DNA of 8,336 nucleotides from Candidatus Mcinerneyibacteriota bacterium. GTDB lineage: Bacteria > AUK180 > JAQVHJ01. Each line of letters starts with the position of its first letter. Within the stretch, counting starts at the first letter, position 1. Location: NCBI GenBank assembly GCA_030630935.1, contig DAOVMD010000115.1, positions 1 to 8,336 on the forward strand, read 5' to 3'. The position numbers were made by a program, and so were the translations under genes. The notes beneath the pieces are model-generated. The model made no database searches. It was not told the DNA's origin and was given only the letters and a program-made list of their open reading frames with translations. Positions 417 to 8,133 of this stretch are shown here, piece by piece.

Positions 417-3400
417 ATGAAAAGCACTAAACGCAAGAGATTTCTAAAAGGAAGTTCTTTAATTGAGGTATTGGTAGCAGTTGTAATCATTGTTATTGCT
501 ATCACAGCGATTGTCAAGATAATTATAATAGGTGGTCGAGCCGGTCGCTCAGCTCATCATTCCTCAGAAGCTCTTATAATTGCACAGAAGTGGATTGAGA
601 AGAGCAAGGCAAGCAGATTTGAGGATAATTTATTCTTTTCTACGGTATGGAAAAAGGAAAATGATCAGGATGAATATAAAGATCGACCTGAATATTTAAG
701 TTGGACATACTGGGTTAAGAGAGAAGAAAGGTATGTTGTTTTGGAGCAGTTGACTACTGATAAAAGTGCAGATACACCTTATAAAGTTCGGCTATTCAAG
801 GATGTAAGTCCTGTTGACGGTTTTGATGAACCGACCGGTCAGGCAAAGGATTTAAAGCAAATAATAATTACGGTTGGTTGGGCTGAGAACAAACTGGTGG
901 AAAATTTAAATGACCTTGACACGGAAAATACCTCCTGGCGTAATGACGTATTCTGGAAGGAAGTAGAGTTAAAAACACTTATATCAAAACAGAGTCCCAG
1001 CGAGACTTCATGTTGTGACGCTCCCGGCGTCGGAGTCCCGGAAATTTATGTTACAAGTCCGGATGAGCAGCTAATTGAAATTACCCCTGCTTCCGAGACC
1101 ATTGAAGCATGTACAGATGTTACAATTCGAGTTAGGGTTCAGGATTTTTGTCCGAATCCCAAGTTACATGTGGTATTATATTACATTGGTGCTAATGAAT
1201 CTGATACCCAGTCAGTTACGATGGAGTCAATGGGTGGTTTAGGATATCATGAAGCTTTAATCCCATGGGAATATGTCAAGAATTATGATGGAGCATGTGA
1301 AGTTGAAGACCCTGACGGTAATCCGGATTTAAAGATCAAAGTCATTGCAACTGATAGCTATGTTGCCCCTGAATGTTCTACAGGTACAATCAGGACTTCA
1401 GCGAGTTCCTGGGTATTGATTGATATCAAAGACACTTCAGTTCCGAAAATTAATATCACTACAAACTCTAGTCTTGTTGAGGGCGGTAGTGGTGTTGGAT
1501 GTCATGGTAAAATAGAAGCTGAGATCGAAGACGGCTGTAATGGAGTTAATGGAATAGATGTAGGGAACTTAAAGGTTGAGCTTGCACCGATGGATGAGAA
1601 TGAGCTTTATAATGAATCAGACTTATTTGAAATCCCCCTGACTGACCAATCAGATTTTACATTTACCTGGGCTATTGATGAGAGTTATATCAAGGATTAT
1701 TCCAATCCTGATACTACTCCGGGAGCTCCGCTTGATGATTTGCCTGATATTTATTATAGGATTACAGCTTATGACACATGCGATCAATATACAGTTGTCT
1801 GGAGTTCAATGACAGTTACTCCTAAAGATACAAAAGCTCCTGAATTTGAAGAAATTTATAGTATGCCATCATGTCTGCCATGGGGTACTAATATTACATT
1901 CGGTTCCAAGTTCACTGATGAGTGTACAGTCGTTTCTGCGGGTTTATATGTTCGAAATCGCGGTTTAGCTAATACTAAAACGATACCTTTATCCTATTCT
2001 GTACCTGGACTTCCGCACTCAAGTCCTCAAATATATGTAGAAGTTACACCTGCGGATATTGATTCCCCGGATGATTTAATTATTCAATTCTGGGCAGAAG
2101 ACGATTCAAATCAAAGAGGGGAGTCTGAAGAATACATTTTTTATTTTGAAGATGCAATTGCCTGGGATATTGATAATGTTTCAAGTGCTGCGACTTATGG
2201 TGAAAGCCACGACACTATTGCGATAATTATTAAGAATATGCGATCTGAACCTACTTATCTTGGTTCTCTTAAGCTGGTAGACCCTACGAGGATAGATATT
2301 TATAATGAAGCGATGGGTAATACATATACGGTAATTCCATTTATAGATAAGGTAGTAATTGAAAGTTTAACAGATACAACATCCTCCGGAGTCCTTTGGG
2401 ATTGGAAGACATCTTATCCGAGCCCCGGTTCCCGAGAGCGTGCTCCGGTTACACTGGACTTTTATAATGCGGATATTGAAGCTCGAAAACTTGATCCGTT
2501 CGAGAGAGCTGTTATTAGGATTCATTTTCTTGATTCATTTAATGATAATCCAATCCCCGCAAATCCAATTGATATGAATAACCTGCATTTTGAAATGTAC
2601 TTAATTGGTGATGCGAATTTCGAGTATGAATGTAAAAGTCTATTTGATTTTTTTACAGTTGGGAATTCGTGTCCTTATGCTGATGCCGGTTGGGATCAGA
2701 TATCTTGTATGACTGTAGGTCATCCTATGAAAGTAGGTTCTACATTTTATTTCTGGGGCGGGAACTCATTTGACCCTGAGGGTGACCCGATAACATTCAC
2801 CTGGGATTTTGGAGATGGTCATACCAGCACTGATGTTTGGACAAATCATAAATTTGCTACCACAGGTTTACATAAAGTTACCCTCAAAGTCTCAGACGGG
2901 TTCTGTACTTCATACGATAGTATTTATGTGCAGGTTTCTGAGAATGAACCACCTGTTGCGAGGATGTGGTACAGCCCCAATCCTACGGGAGTTGGTATTC
3001 CGGTTAATTTTGATGCCTGGAATTCTTATGACCCGAACTGTGAACAATGGGCATGGCCTGTCGGATTAACTTATCATTGGGATTTTGGAGATGGAGATAC
3101 CTCGACTAATGCCTGGGAGTCTCATCCATATATAAATACGGGGACTTATACGGTTACATTAACAGTTTGGGATTCTGATAGTGCGACTGATTCAATCTCC
3201 ACCGACATTGAAGTTCTTGATGCTTCAACATGCTTCTTAACAAATGTAGGTGCATGGCCTTCAGCCTGGAGCTTCAACGGCTTGGTTGGAACCCAGATTA
3301 CCTTCTGGGGCTGGGTTGGTGATGGAGTCTCGCCATATATCTTTAACTGGGATTTTGGAGACGGTGATACCGCTTCTACAGAGGAAGCTTTCCATACTTA

Positions 3401-4124
3401 TAATAGTACGGGAACTTTTGAGGTTCGATTCTCGGTAATTGATAGTTCCGGATGTATAGGTTCAACTGGCTTCTACCTTACGATTTATGATTTGGATCAG
3501 ATGGTCTGTGATTTTGCATTTGTATGTGCAGGAAATAGGGAGTATGTGGAACTGAACGATATATTTGTTAATACAGGATTTATTGACCTGGAATCCGAAG
3601 TAACAGGTGGATTCTCCGGCGGGTACTGGTTTAACTGGAACATTGCCGATGCGGATCCGAATTGGGGTTGGGAGCCTAATATCAGTGATGTCGTATTCCT
3701 TGCATATGGAGATAAGGATGTTTGGCTGCAGGCCTGGGACAACAGTGCAGGTTACTGTGAATCTACTAAACAGGCTCATGTCTCGGCAATCGAGCCAATT
3801 GCAGTCAAAAGTTTTACGAATTCAACCACAATGACAATTACGTTCAATGTGCTCGGTGCTCCAATAAATATTTCAAATGTTTATCTTGAAGGATATGATA
3901 TGCCCAGTGGCCAGAAAATTAAACAGGTTTACCTGAATGGTACTTTAATATACTTAGGAAATGCTGCAACTATGCTGAATGTTGCGACTGCCCAATTACT
4001 TAACCTTGGAGAAAATGTCCTTACAATTGTAGGGAGTTATGACTATAACGCTACTTCTTATTTCAGGGTTCAGGTAACTTCCGCTAATGAATGTGGTGGA
4101 ACTGCCGCCTTTGAAGCACCATAA
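417..4124 (+). CDS. Giant modular PilV/GspI-like minor pilin with Ig-like and PKD domains
   Basis: A 1235-aa prepilin-like protein, probably a surface-exposed tip component of a type IV pilus or related filament. The N-terminus has a basic leader, then a prepilin peptidase motif GSSLIEVLVA (cut after Gly, Glu at +5, Ser instead of Phe at +1) and a hydrophobic helix to about residue 40. Residues 40-195 resemble the PilV/GspI core, including SEALIIAQKWIEKSK and a final beta segment. After that come three Ig-like modules (about 206-338, 339-470, 471-580), each with a Cys pair near its start (232/245, 362/374, 486/503). Residues 580-748 are another beta-rich region. PKD domains follow with WDFGDG at 796, 888 and 978, and a degenerate fourth has WNIADAD at 1074. 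Residues 1128-1235 form a last beta domain. Ordinary minor pilins have 100-200 aa, so about 1000 residues are extra. It is first in a tight four-gene operon. The pilin call is firm; an adhesive role is inferred. Confidence 0.88.
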   Translation: MKSTKRKRFLKGSSLIEVLVAVVIIVIAITAIVKIIIIGGRAGRSAHHSSEALIIAQKWIEKSKASRFEDNLFFSTVWKKENDQDEYKDRPEYLSWTYWVKREERYVVLEQLTTDKSADTPYKVRLFKDVSPVDGFDEPTGQAKDLKQIIITVGWAENKLVENLNDLDTENTSWRNDVFWKEVELKTLISKQSPSETSCCDAPGVGVPEIYVTSPDEQLIEITPASETIEACTDVTIRVRVQDFCPNPKLHVVLYYIGANESDTQSVTMESMGGLGYHEALIPWEYVKNYDGACEVEDPDGNPDLKIKVIATDSYVAPECSTGTIRTSASSWVLIDIKDTSVPKINITTNSSLVEGGSGVGCHGKIEAEIEDGCNGVNGIDVGNLKVELAPMDENELYNESDLFEIPLTDQSDFTFTWAIDESYIKDYSNPDTTPGAPLDDLPDIYYRITAYDTCDQYTVVWSSMTVTPKDTKAPEFEEIYSMPSCLPWGTNITFGSKFTDECTVVSAGLYVRNRGLANTKTIPLSYSVPGLPHSSPQIYVEVTPADIDSPDDLIIQFWAEDDSNQRGESEEYIFYFEDAIAWDIDNVSSAATYGESHDTIAIIIKNMRSEPTYLGSLKLVDPTRIDIYNEAMGNTYTVIPFIDKVVIESLTDTTSSGVLWDWKTSYPSPGSRERAPVTLDFYNADIEARKLDPFERAVIRIHFLDSFNDNPIPANPIDMNNLHFEMYLIGDANFEYECKSLFDFFTVGNSCPYADAGWDQISCMTVGHPMKVGSTFYFWGGNSFDPEGDPITFTWDFGDGHTSTDVWTNHKFATTGLHKVTLKVSDGFCTSYDSIYVQVSENEPPVARMWYSPNPTGVGIPVNFDAWNSYDPNCEQWAWPVGLTYHWDFGDGDTSTNAWESHPYINTGTYTVTLTVWDSDSATDSISTDIEVLDASTCFLTNVGAWPSAWSFNGLVGTQITFWGWVGDGVSPYIFNWDFGDGDTASTEEAFHTYNSTGTFEVRFSVIDSSGCIGSTGFYLTIYDLDQMVCDFAFVCAGNREYVELNDIFVNTGFIDLESEVTGGFSGGYWFNWNIADADPNWGWEPNISDVVFLAYGDKDVWLQAWDNSAGYCESTKQAHVSAIEPIAVKSFTNSTTMTITFNVLGAPINISNVYLEGYDMPSGQKIKQVYLNGTLIYLGNAATMLNVATAQLLNLGENVLTIVGSYDYNATSYFRVQVTSANECGGTAAFEAP
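2661..3520 (+). other. PKD domain array within the giant pilin
   Basis: This part of the gene encodes three PKD domains (about residues 749-842, 843-935 and 936-1030). Each shows the family signature WDFGDG followed by a Thr/Ser-rich turn, an H-x-Y/F position, a TGT/TGL-type turn and a final V-T-L or V-R-F strand with D-S/D-G. PKD domains are Ig-fold modules of extracellular proteins that often serve as stalks or binding modules. The core codons are nearly identical at DNA level in all three: TGGGATTTTGGAGA begins at 2802, 3078 and 3348, a period of 276 and 270 bp. This suggests tandem duplication. Confidence 0.85.
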
Positions 4125-4139
4125 TAGGAGGACTGAAAT

Positions 4140-4841
4140 ATGAAAAAGAAAAAAAATGAGAAGGGTTTTACAATTATCGAGATGTTGATTGTGCTTGCAG
4201 TCTCTTCAATAATGTTGGCAACACTTGGAGTTGCAATCGTTTCTTTCCAGAGAAATTTCGGGGAGAAGACAGAAAAGCACCACACCGCAATGTACCTTGA
4301 GCAAATAATTAAAATGATTCAGCTCGAATTTCCAGGAGCGAACACTGTTCCCATTGTTGGTACTTGCCCCACCTGTACTTTAAGTTTTGCACCTTTTCCG
4401 TCTGATGAAGATAATTCATTCCAGGAGGCAAAATTTGGAACAGTAAAATTAATTTTTGTAGCACAGTATGATGACCTTTTTGATAACAACTGGAATTATG
4501 ATACAACAAAATTTCTTTTCATCTCGCAGATTGAAAGTGGAACATTTACTCAGCAGAGTGATATAGGGATTAAGGTTTTTGATCTCAATATTTATAAAAC
4601 AACAAACAATCTTACAATGGCAGTAACACGAATGAATTTATTATCAGTAGACCGTCCTGAATCGGCATATCTTGAAGAAGTAAGTATTACAAATGAAGAT
4701 GGTAATTGGTATCTAATTGGGTTCTTCTTCCGGCTTAGAAATTACTGGTATAAGGATAAATCAATTGAAATCGCGAGTGGAAAAAAGAATCCTTATAATT
4801 TTGACTTTACATTAAATACAAATTTAAAAATTAGAAATTAG
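4140..4841 (+). CDS. PilW/GspJ-like minor pilin
   Basis: A 233-aa type IV prepilin-like protein, probably part of the minor-pilin tip complex in the inner membrane and periplasm. It has a lysine-rich leader of nine residues ending in Gly, then FTIIEMLIVLAVSSIMLA: cleavage after Gly9, Phe at +1 and Glu at +5 (Glu14), followed by the usual hydrophobic helix. After the helix, HHTAMYLEQIIKMIQLEF resembles the region of PilW/GspJ after the N-terminal helix. A CPTC motif sits at residues 76-79 and may form a disulfide. The C-terminal part (SAYLEEVSITNEDGNWYLIGFFFRLRN, written here in two parts: SAYLEEVSITNEDG and NWYLIGFFFRLRN) is beta-rich. AGGAGG lies 8 nt before the ATG, and the gene begins 15 nt after the giant pilin. 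The position second after a PilV-like gene and the length support PilW/GspJ; the exact subfamily is not certain. The leader is coded by an A8 run that could slip. Confidence 0.85.
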   Translation: MKKKKNEKGFTIIEMLIVLAVSSIMLATLGVAIVSFQRNFGEKTEKHHTAMYLEQIIKMIQLEFPGANTVPIVGTCPTCTLSFAPFPSDEDNSFQEAKFGTVKLIFVAQYDDLFDNNWNYDTTKFLFISQIESGTFTQQSDIGIKVFDLNIYKTTNNLTMAVTRMNLLSVDRPESAYLEEVSITNEDGNWYLIGFFFRLRNYWYKDKSIEIASGKKNPYNFDFTLNTNLKIRN

Positions 4842-4849
4842 AAGGAGGA
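4842..4849 (+). promoter_or_regulatory. Ribosome binding site deciding a GTG start
   Basis: AAGGAGGA, a near-complete Shine-Dalgarno match, ends 7 nt before GTG 4857-4859. It directly follows the stop codon of the preceding pilin gene. It fixes the start of the PilX/GspK-like protein at GTG, which is also where a typical short leader before the hydrophobic helix would begin. Confidence 0.85.
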
Positions 4850-4856
4850 AAATATT

Positions 4857-6149
4857 GTGAAGGTTTATAGAACAAAAAGTGAACAGGGCAGTGTCCTTAT
4901 TCTTGCATTGTTATCAATTGTAGTCTTCTTTGTTCTTGCTACTGCTTTTCTAATGATTGCACAACAGCATTTAAAGATGCAGGAAAAAGAATCAAATCGG
5001 GCAACTGCTTTTTATAGAGCAGAACGCGGCATCAATGCTGTGGTTAATCTTTTAATGCGTGACGGGGACGATGATTTCAGAACCGCAGGGGAGAAGAAAC
5101 CCCCTCTTTCTCCGAATACTGTTCCGTATGCATTTGACTTTAGCAATGTAAATTTTCAGGTTGATAGGTTGGATACGCGCACTAATCCAATAAGTGATGT
5201 TATTGATAAAAACATTCATGTAGAAGAAATGTTCGAAACCAAGAAGGATTCAATCTGGATAAAGGTAACAGGCTTTTATTATCCGAGGGATGAGTATAAT
5301 AAAACTAAGATTGAAACTAAAGACGAAGACTATATGAAACAAATTATCAAAAGAACAGTTATCGTTAGATTGAGTAAATTCCCCCTTGATGCATTTGATT
5401 ATGCTTTTTATACTTGTAATGATATGAAAGTAAATGGTAGTACCGAAGTCAGCGGTCCAATCTGGGTGGGGGGAACATTAGATGTTGTAGAAACTCCAGG
5501 TCCACATGGACAACATTTTGAATATGACACTTCCGGGAGTACAATTTCAGATGATCCGGATGATCAAGCAAAGTGTTTTAGCTATCTTCAAAATATCCAG
5601 GCTTGGGGTGAAACATTATGTAGTGATCCTAATACCATTAAGATACCATCCGGTACGAAAGCAGGTAATGACAAATATCCTGGCGGGACAATCCTCTGCT
5701 GTGAAGGTGATTTGAAGATCACCGGAGGTTTAACACTATTAGATACCGATCTTGCAGGAACTAACTATATAGGCCCGTCAATGCTGATAGTTAAAGGAAA
5801 CTTAGATATTCAAGGTAATGTTGAGGTTCATGGTCTGATAATGACATTTGGTGATTTTCTTGGTGAAGATGGTGAGGTAGATACTGGTGATGAGGATACA
5901 TCGCATGTAAGCGGTAGTGCCGGGAGCCAGGGGAGTATCATTTCATTACAGGATTTATGGCTTTCAGGTGGGAATGGTTTGGAACTTGAATTTAAAGATT
6001 ATGGTGATTTTGGTTACGGTAGAGCAATCTCTACATCAAAATGGAGAGAGACCTGGGATAAATTCTATGTTGAACGAGGCGGTACGACTTATACAATTGA
6101 AGTTGAAGATGTCGCGGTACCTACTCCTGATGACCCGGTTATAGATTAA
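4857..6149 (+). CDS. PilX/GspK-like minor pilin with beta-rich ectodomain
   Basis: A 430-aa protein with a PilX-type N-terminus: short basic leader (MKVYRTKSEQG), then SVLILALLSIVVFFVLATAF and the amphipathic continuation HLKMQEKESNRATAFYRAERG, where PilX and related proteins have the typical A-x-x-A-E-x-G pattern. The +5 glutamate of ordinary pilins is replaced by Leu, as is usual for PilX/GspK, proteins that cap the pseudopilus tip. Residues about 179-390 contain repeated short Gly/Asn/Asp-rich strands (MKVNGSTEVSGPIWVGG; LKITGG; IVKGNLDIQGNVEVHGLI; SAGSQGSIISLQDLWLSGG), which look like a beta-solenoid. Vicinal cysteines occur at 281-282. The tail is Pro/Asp-rich. The gene starts with GTG 15 nt after the PilW-like gene. 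The N-terminal family call is firm; the ectodomain fold is inferred from pattern only. Confidence 0.8.
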   Translation: MKVYRTKSEQGSVLILALLSIVVFFVLATAFLMIAQQHLKMQEKESNRATAFYRAERGINAVVNLLMRDGDDDFRTAGEKKPPLSPNTVPYAFDFSNVNFQVDRLDTRTNPISDVIDKNIHVEEMFETKKDSIWIKVTGFYYPRDEYNKTKIETKDEDYMKQIIKRTVIVRLSKFPLDAFDYAFYTCNDMKVNGSTEVSGPIWVGGTLDVVETPGPHGQHFEYDTSGSTISDDPDDQAKCFSYLQNIQAWGETLCSDPNTIKIPSGTKAGNDKYPGGTILCCEGDLKITGGLTLLDTDLAGTNYIGPSMLIVKGNLDIQGNVEVHGLIMTFGDFLGEDGEVDTGDEDTSHVSGSAGSQGSIISLQDLWLSGGNGLELEFKDYGDFGYGRAISTSKWRETWDKFYVERGGTTYTIEVEDVAVPTPDDPVID

Positions 6150-6165: not shown

Positions 6166-8133
6166 TTGCATAAAGATTTAGAATCGATAAAAGTATCAAG
6201 AATTTTCTATATGCTTCTAATTGTGTTACTGCCTTTAGTTGTAGTTCCTCAATATTATAATGCGTTTTCATTTCCTAAAGAGACCATATTCAAATTAGGT
6301 TTAATATTAATTGCCCTAACAATTGGCTTGGAGTTTATCCTCGGGCAAAGAAATAAAATTAATAAGAATCAAAATCTAAAAACAATTGTTTTTATTTTCT
6401 TGACCGGGATTATTATTTTAACGATTGTAAGCTTCCTTGCAAATAATAAAGAAATTTCATTCAGAGGCTTTGATAAGTATGTTTTCCTCTTCCTGCTGTT
6501 TATCCTTTCAACAATAATATTTAATGATTCGAAGGACTTCAAGAAAAATGTTTTGATTTTTCTGGTTTTATCAGGAACCGTGGTCTCTTGCCTGGGTATA
6601 TTGAACCTGTTCGGGGTAACAATTTTTAAAATGCCTGCTTTCGCAGGAAGATGGAGGTTTATCTCCACGATTGGAAATCCGAATATGTTGGGTGAGTTTA
6701 TTTTACCAATGAGTATATTATCTCTCGGGTTAGCCTTTTTTGAGAAGGATAAAAAAAAGAAGATTTTTTTCGGGATATTATTTTTATTAAATTCATTTAT
6801 CGTTTTATTTACTCAAAGCCGTGCAGTTTTTATTAGTTATTTCATCGCATTAGTTATTTTCTACCTGATAATATTAAGGAATAAAAAAGTTATTTTTCAG
6901 GTAAAGCGCAAATTTCAACCATTGATTATTCCTACCATAATAGTACTGATTCTGATATTGAGTATGATACCATTAGGGAAGAATAAGAGTTTATTCGGTA
7001 GATTAAAAGAAGGGATTAGATTTAGAGATTATAATACCCGCCTTAGAATACTGCATGTGAAAACAAGTATTAATATGTTCATGGAGAAACCCTTCGGTCG
7101 CGGGATAAATAATTATAAAATTGAAAATTATAAATACCTCTATAAAATTCTGAAGACAGAAGATATTAAACTTCCGGACAGACTTTCATTTTTTAATCAT
7201 CCACATAATGAATATTTAAATATCCTGGTTGAAACAGGGATATTTGGGTTTTTATTATTCTGCGGAACAATCGTTTTTATAATCTTTAAATTTAAAAGAC
7301 GCCGGGAAATAGACTTTATAGATATCGCATGTTTTAGTGCATTTATTGGGATTCTTATAAATGCATTATTCTCCGGGAACCTGCACCAGGTATTGATACA
7401 GGCTGTGTTAATAATAATTGTAACTATATTATTAGAAGAATCATATAAGCAAAAGGAGATAACGTTCTTTAAAATCCTAAAAGAAAAATTCAAGCCTGTA
7501 TTCTTTATTTTTCTATTTTCATATTTACTTATGGGGCTGACAGTTATTGCATTGTTCTCTGTTAGAACATATCAGAAAACTCAAGCAGAAATCAATATGA
7601 ACAGCGGAATTTATTTTTATAATCATAAAATGTATGCCGGGGCAATTAAAGAATTGAGAAAAGTTCTAATCTATGATAAACATTACGGTGTTGCATATCT
7701 TTATCTTTGTACTTCATTTTTTAATGAAGAACAGTATTTTCAATCAATTACTTATGCAGAAGAGACTCAAAAGTATTTAGGACACCCGCAACTGGACTAT
7801 ATTTTAGGGATCAGCTTTATAAGAACTAAGCAGTCATATAAAGCAATAGAACACCTTGAAATCGCAAGGTATCTCTTTCGAAACAATAGAAAGATTGAAC
7901 TTGATATTGCAAAGGCTTACATGGATATCGGGATGGTTAAAGCTGCAAAAGTTATAGTTTGGGAAGTCTACAAAAAAGAAGAGGATAACGTTAAGTGTCT
8001 GATGTTAAGAGCATTAATTTTTGAAATGGAACAAGATTATATGAGTATGTTTGTAACACTAAAAAAAATAATCAAGTTAGACCCTTACAATATTTATGCG
8101 AATAAAAAATTATTCGATTATGGGTATAAATGA
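6166..8133 (+). CDS. O-antigen ligase/polymerase-family (Wzy/WaaL/PglL-like) membrane protein with TPRs
   Basis: A 655-aa polytopic inner-membrane protein with about a dozen hydrophobic segments between residues 13 and 465. Family signs are the GNPN motif (170-173), TQSR with Arg219, a large hydrophilic loop (about 271-350) with GRG (311-313) and HPHNEYLN (345-352), and a membrane segment right after it (ETGIFGF). This is the usual form of the Wzy_C/O-antigen ligase superfamily, which transfers or polymerises lipid-linked glycans on the periplasmic side. Five TPR repeats of 33-34 residues follow: 474-507, 508-541, 542-575, 576-608 and 609-642. Homologues act as WaaL ligases, Wzy polymerases or PglL/PilO O-oligosaccharyltransferases, and sequence alone does not separate these. 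Its place 16 nt behind three minor-pilin genes makes pilin glycosylation a reasonable idea. The gene looks more AT-rich than the pilin genes. The start is probably TTG; ATG 6211 is the alternative. Confidence 0.82.
   Translation: MHKDLESIKVSRIFYMLLIVLLPLVVVPQYYNAFSFPKETIFKLGLILIALTIGLEFILGQRNKINKNQNLKTIVFIFLTGIIILTIVSFLANNKEISFRGFDKYVFLFLLFILSTIIFNDSKDFKKNVLIFLVLSGTVVSCLGILNLFGVTIFKMPAFAGRWRFISTIGNPNMLGEFILPMSILSLGLAFFEKDKKKKIFFGILFLLNSFIVLFTQSRAVFISYFIALVIFYLIILRNKKVIFQVKRKFQPLIIPTIIVLILILSMIPLGKNKSLFGRLKEGIRFRDYNTRLRILHVKTSINMFMEKPFGRGINNYKIENYKYLYKILKTEDIKLPDRLSFFNHPHNEYLNILVETGIFGFLLFCGTIVFIIFKFKRRREIDFIDIACFSAFIGILINALFSGNLHQVLIQAVLIIIVTILLEESYKQKEITFFKILKEKFKPVFFIFLFSYLLMGLTVIALFSVRTYQKTQAEINMNSGIYFYNHKMYAGAIKELRKVLIYDKHYGVAYLYLCTSFFNEEQYFQSITYAEETQKYLGHPQLDYILGISFIRTKQSYKAIEHLEIARYLFRNNRKIELDIAKAYMDIGMVKAAKVIVWEVYKKEEDNVKCLMLRALIFEMEQDYMSMFVTLKKIIKLDPYNIYANKKLFDYGYK

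Follow-up and report, generated by a model that had tools for sequence, protein, structure and literature searches.

Modular pilins are numerous: more than 1,200 proteins with 264 architectures have been described, and the extreme multi-domain case named among them has 860 residues (PMC8179133). In Streptococcus sanguinis, PilB (vWA) and PilC (lectin) join an N-terminal pilin module to a grafted effector module, which is presented at the pilus tip. The I, J, and K minor pilins have been placed at the pilus tip, a position argued to be the only one, or the best one, that can accommodate bulky modular pilins (PMC9934059, PMC8179133). Where the I subunit has been studied, it initiates the filament and displays an effector borne by a different protein.

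The stretch of DNA analyzed here (the window) is a complete contig (C425) of 8336 bp from a 3.16-Mb, 80%-complete metagenome-assembled genome. Its first gene (417–4124, forward strand) encodes a giant modular I-type (PilV/GspI-like) minor pilin of 1235 residues, with a pI of 4.3 and a mass of 137.5 kDa. This protein is probably a modular I subunit of the I-J-K tip complex of a type IVa pilus, with a stalk of Ig and PKD modules that serves as the pilus's own tip adhesin.

The pilin module

The ORF is a single frame without internal stop, and its ATG is preceded by AGGAG. Judged from the sequence, residues 1–12 form a prepilin leader (417–452) that reads MKSTKRKRFLKG before the predicted cut and SSLIEVLVAV after it, with the cleavage Gly at residue 12 and Glu at mature position 5. 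The N-terminus thus combines the short basic leader, Gly, Glu5, and hydrophobic alpha1 of the type III signal of type IV pilins; Gly12 and Glu17 are invariant in the six aligned sequences of the family. The N_methyl model scored 15.6 bits in a whole-protein scan, below its cut-off, and 23.1 bits in a genome scan, above it. The NCBIfam PilV model TIGR02523, an equivalog model built for proteobacterial-type PilV, matches residues 12–67 (E = 4e-5), but at 24 bits against a curated cut-off of 52.2 and over its N-terminal part only. Because the match falls below this cut-off, sequence alone identifies the ORF only as a pilin, and the claim made here is of an I-type fold rather than of PilV orthology. 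Profile comparison of the pilin part with small PilV-like pilins of other lineages gave E = 9e-18 in full and 3.5e-6 without most of alpha1; against PDB sequences, the pilin profile returned just weak N-terminal matches to Geobacter-type pilins.

A structural model of residues 1–208, built from an alignment with five relatives, reached middling confidence (mean pLDDT 62.6). Within it, the pilin module (residues 13–193; 453–995) consists of helix alpha1 (15–65) packed on an antiparallel beta-sheet (strands 98–111, 122–126, 146–156, and 180–190), the arrangement of the pilin superfamily, and its nearest relatives are GspI and XcpV. The best structural match was XcpV (5vtm; Z 8.3, 81 residues aligned, 2.4 A), followed by chain B of the XcpV-XcpW complex (5bw0; Z 8.2), chain R of XcpGHIJK (9a1f; Z 8.0), the EpsI-EpsJ complex (2ret; Z 7.5), and the I-like PilA of S. 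sanguinis (7o5y; Z 5.8). These five top matches are all GspI-type or I-like, and the next was unrelated (Z 4.7). A Foldseek search with the same model found no significant match; the GspI likeness was resolved only by the second aligner. As modeled, the pilin domain is of the I (GspI/PilV) type specifically. It is followed by a linker (996–1034) with a Cys-Cys pair (residues 199–200) that is invariant in the alignment of homologs.

A preliminary description of this DNA had reported a prepilin motif and a PilV/GspI-like core fused in one frame to about 1000 residues of Ig and PKD modules; the uninterrupted frame, the I-type fold, and the three PKD domains described below bear this out, and the N-terminal part does model as a pilin closest to GspI, as that description required.

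The stalk

The pilin domain is followed by about 1030 residues of beta-sandwich modules. With borders that are approximate throughout, about nine can be counted: four Ig-like, four PKD or PKD-like, and one terminal. Three Ig-like modules (residues ~207–340, 341–471, and 472–586; 1035–2174) are assigned from the structural model, and a fourth beta-sandwich module (~587–751; 2175–2669) is kept across the class, with no Pfam match. Three PKD domains (~753–1022; 2673–3482) are identified by domain matches over three stretches of the protein (PKD_4, E = 6.6e-35; PKD, E = 6e-26) and by WDFGDG motifs at residues 796, 888, and 978; sequence comparison also matched this region to collagenase PKD structures. 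A degenerate PKD-like module (~1030–1127; 3504–3797) has no Pfam match and carries a WNIADA version of the motif at residue 1074. The C-terminal module (~1128–1235; 3798–4121) is lineage-specific, without counterpart in the five complete relatives; its matches to CBM35 and archaellin-like families were all sub-threshold, and the domain search recognized no known adhesive domain within it. The presence after the pilin module of PKD_4 and PKD domains, which are not specific to pilus biology, makes this a modular pilin.

In a 1200-residue model, residues ~205–515 form Ig-like sheets at moderate confidence, the remainder is of low confidence (mean pLDDT 45), and the whole is too uncertain to give an overall shape. 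The modeled ~205–515 segment matches tandem modules of fibronectin-III, titin, and the bacterial adhesin SiiE. The Ig assignment of the stalk modules rests on this model, which is moderately confident just for ~205–515, and only the three PKD domains are certain by sequence. The earlier count of eight or more Ig-fold modules was therefore fair as a number, with certainty by sequence confined to those three, and the full-protein prediction then proposed gave Ig-like sheets in the first part of the stalk alone.

Operon structure and neighboring genes

The four genes in the window lie on the same strand (417–4124, 4140–4841, 4857–6149, and 6166–8133) and are separated by gaps of 15 or 16 bp, so they probably form one operon. 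By gene order and N-terminus, the second encodes a J-type (PilW/GspJ-like) minor pilin of 233 residues and the third a K-type (PilX/GspK-like) minor pilin of 430 residues that lacks Glu5. An I-type pilin is thus encoded alongside J and a K without Glu5, both in the window (4140–6149) and in five relatives of the same class. Lack of Glu5 is a mark of the K subunit that caps the tip, and its absence from this K supports assignment of the set to an I-J-K tip complex (PMC9934059).

The fourth gene, 16 bp past the K gene, encodes a Wzy_C (O-antigen ligase-like) membrane protein of 655 residues with C-terminal TPRs. It matches the pilin oligosaccharyltransferase TfpM weakly (E = 9e-6, far below cut-off) and could glycosylate the pilus; in the five class relatives with a complete operon, no Wzy_C gene lies beside it. 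Just upstream of the operon (27–260) are three tandem copies of a 77–79-bp repeat with a palindromic core (CAAGCAACTTTGTTGCTTG) and CTCTGTT-type filler; the 36-bp core does not occur elsewhere in the assembly.

Homologs within the class

In a survey of 386 genomes, the full-length family was found in this class only, in all seven of its members. Each of the six relatives found has a collinear homolog; five of these are intact and complete (958–1120 residues), with genes for J and K pilins next in line. The gene order, to the extent that each contig covers it, is leuS-lptE-I-J-K: an LptE-like lipoprotein gene lies immediately upstream of the homolog, with a leucyl-tRNA synthetase gene before it in five of the six (partial in G001), both names having been assigned by reading translations. 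The sixth homolog (G001, 60% identical) ends where its contig stops inside the second PKD domain and contains one in-frame TGA (L010:2149–2151). Its position is a variable one (P*IEDY compared with P[KT]I..), so recoding is not suggested; the codon may be a sequencing error, a polymorphism, or decay.

Residues 1–750 align in all relatives, and the tail varies between them. Three homologs (L049, L050, and L051) carry an insert of four CxNGxDDDGDGxxDCxDxDC repeats within the PKD tail (residues 880–1010), and in a fourth (L048) the DDDGDG repeats of the PKD region are fewer and degenerate, without the full Cys-Asp pattern; in the alignment of homologs, the insert is absent from the window protein and from L047. 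By their sequence, these repeats are probably metal-binding, with calcium as the ligand. A search of a plasmid collection returned matches confined to the PKD region. The survey of homologs proposed earlier thus recovers the same architecture across the class, collinear and with a variable tail.

Proposed function and alternatives

If the protein is the I subunit of a tip complex and its own adhesin, prepilin peptidase would cut it after Gly12, and filament assembly would begin with the packing of alpha1 and the small sheet against J and K. From the last strand of the pilin sheet, the stalk would go first through the PilQ pore and project from the pilus tip as a fiber of about nine modules, roughly 35 nm long if each module spans 4 nm. 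The end modules, which are changeable, would then touch surfaces, polysaccharide, or other cells, and retraction would draw the cell towards them. Tip location, extension and length of the fiber, and adhesion are properties that we infer for the giant I pilin.

The alternative that survives best, though we consider it unlikely, makes the stalk a spacer and priming cap that takes the pilus tip across the envelope or surface layers, with binding proper left to K or to some secreted partner, on the model of CofB and its CofJ. The lack of a recognizable binding domain in the C-terminal module would fit such a role, as would the large K, whose sequence from residue 181 has weak ice-binding-like matches (pAdhesive_15, choice_anch_A); ComZ, the Thermus tip pilin whose beta-solenoid these matches recall, has an ice-binding-like solenoid and binds DNA (PMC6561018). 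However, the K match is weak and is seen in just one of six members of the K family, and no obvious gene for a secreted partner lies beside the operon in the relatives, as judged by eye. The conservation of residues 1–750 together with a variable tail has also been counted in favor of a spacer, but an adhesin would also be expected to pair a conserved stalk with a variable end; this pattern fits a surface-binding fiber and is compatible with a plain spacer too.

It is much less probable that the operon serves a T2SS-like pseudopilus, in which a long I subunit would act as a substrate-recruiting piston in the periplasm. GspI is the nearest fold, I-J-K sets are common to T2SS and T4P, and on contig C208 a further secretin gene is located close to a different pilin pair. 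Against this, a search for T2SS GspL that was positive in its Escherichia coli and Caulobacter controls found none in the seven class genomes, and a nine-module stalk of about 35 nm would be at least as long as a typical periplasm is wide. Outside this operon, the genome encodes two major-type pilins, PilD, PilM, PilN, PilO, two secretin-domain proteins, and PilC on contig C338, the parts of a type IVa pilus machine, as well as nine matches to the T2SSE ATPase family of both PilB-like and PilT-like lengths. Given these genes and the missing GspL, the T2SS reading is not favored, and a type IVa pilus is the most likely home of the I-J-K operon. Since contigs C190 and C208 carry two more small sets of minor pilins, the particular pilus that owns the giant I pilin is one that we infer. 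The idea that an assembly error joined two unrelated genes, or that the long frame is a decayed gene, might be raised by a window that is a whole contig of a fragmented assembly and by the in-frame TGA of one homolog, but it has next to no probability: the same fusion occurs in six other genomes, with an intact frame in five, which disposes of the joining error that the preliminary description had named as a refutation.

The tip adhesin reading also bears on PilY1. No match to PilY1 (PF05567) was found in the 1235-residue protein or in any of the seven class genomes, five of which are more than 90% complete. The same search was positive in 18 of 116 sampled genomes; with 84% of these lacking PilY1, its absence from the class appears genuine yet unsurprising, and is weak evidence, and no proof, of replacement. 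PF05567 was likewise missing from all seven further genomes in which large I-type frames occur, including G297, where the frame is known just as an open frame. Zero in 14 genomes would be expected by chance about 1 time in 10 at the sampled rate, and the genomes lack independence from one another, so the association falls short of being established, and loss of PilY1 was rejected as proof of a role swap. That the adhesin role moved from PilY1 into the giant I pilin is plausible.

Large I-type pilins in other lineages

Large I-type pilins also occur in other lineages, matching the window family mainly in the pilin part. They comprise proteins of 1160, 1161, and 1235 residues that form one family (L081:4670–8149, L082:6751–10233, and L084:6243–9947) and others of 1284 (L083:5123–8974), 806 (with Big_5; L070:958–3375), and 697 residues (L085:6049–8139). 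These represent several unrelated families, adjoin other pilin genes, and mostly have extensions without a Pfam domain. Members of the 1160-, 1161-, and 1235-residue family are encoded beside J and K pilin genes. Their K-type pilins (L081:8164–10239, L082:4563–6737, and L084:4132–6240) are themselves about 690–725 residues long, so that both tip subunits are enlarged.

The pilins of 1160–1284 residues show no similarity to the window family beyond the pilin part, which suggests that giant I-type pilins arose separately in these lineages. An enlarged I-type pilin beside J and K is a strategy that recurs across lineages. It is possible, though we hold it only tentatively, that the I subunit independently became the tip adhesin in several lineages of bacteria that lack PilY1, by way of a C-terminal chain of about 500–1100 residues; in this class the chain would combine an Ig stalk that is conserved with a PKD/Cys-Asp-repeat end that is open to change and held tens of nanometers off the tip.

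Comparison with known systems

With GspI, XcpV, and PilV, the I subunits of the H-I-J-K tip complex, the window protein shares the signal, alpha1, the sheet, and the gene order I-J-K. Known I subunits have about 120–200 residues, whereas the giant I is several times larger through its C-terminal stalk. In S. sanguinis, the one case studied in depth, the adhesive function is borne by modules of PilB and PilC, which a bare, I-like PilA presents; in the window protein such modules belong to the I subunit (PMC8179133, PMC9934059). The modular pilins of S. sanguinis have one grafted domain, as against about 1030 residues of Ig and PKD modules here. The earlier statement that known modular pilins are much smaller comes down to degree, given the 860-residue case (PMC8179133) and the giants of other lineages.

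CofB of enterotoxigenic E. coli and ComZ of Thermus thermophilus are likewise large minor pilins with extra beta-rich domains that are proposed to sit at the tip. CofB has two extra domains and is an adapter for CofJ (PMC8179133), where the giant I has a C-terminal Ig/PKD chain; in ComZ the beta-solenoid is inserted in the pilin sheet (PMC6561018), whereas the extension of the giant I is C-terminal. No description of this architecture turned up when the open-access literature was searched for PKD-containing pilins.

The proposed role, that of a large modular tip adhesin borne by the minor-pilin complex, is the one also held by PilY1/PilC; PilY1, however, is a non-pilin with a beta-propeller, and no protein of its family was matched in this class. 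If the proposal is correct, a single polypeptide, a modular I stalk of 130 kDa, can both initiate the filament and bind surfaces, and this would explain how the PilY1-less pili of outer-membrane bacteria could have a tip adhesin; the homologs of the class provide a defined set of proteins for testing this idea. Modular pilins as such are already known. What is new here, relative to the literature searched, is an I subunit that carries modules at such a size and is conserved across a little-known class.
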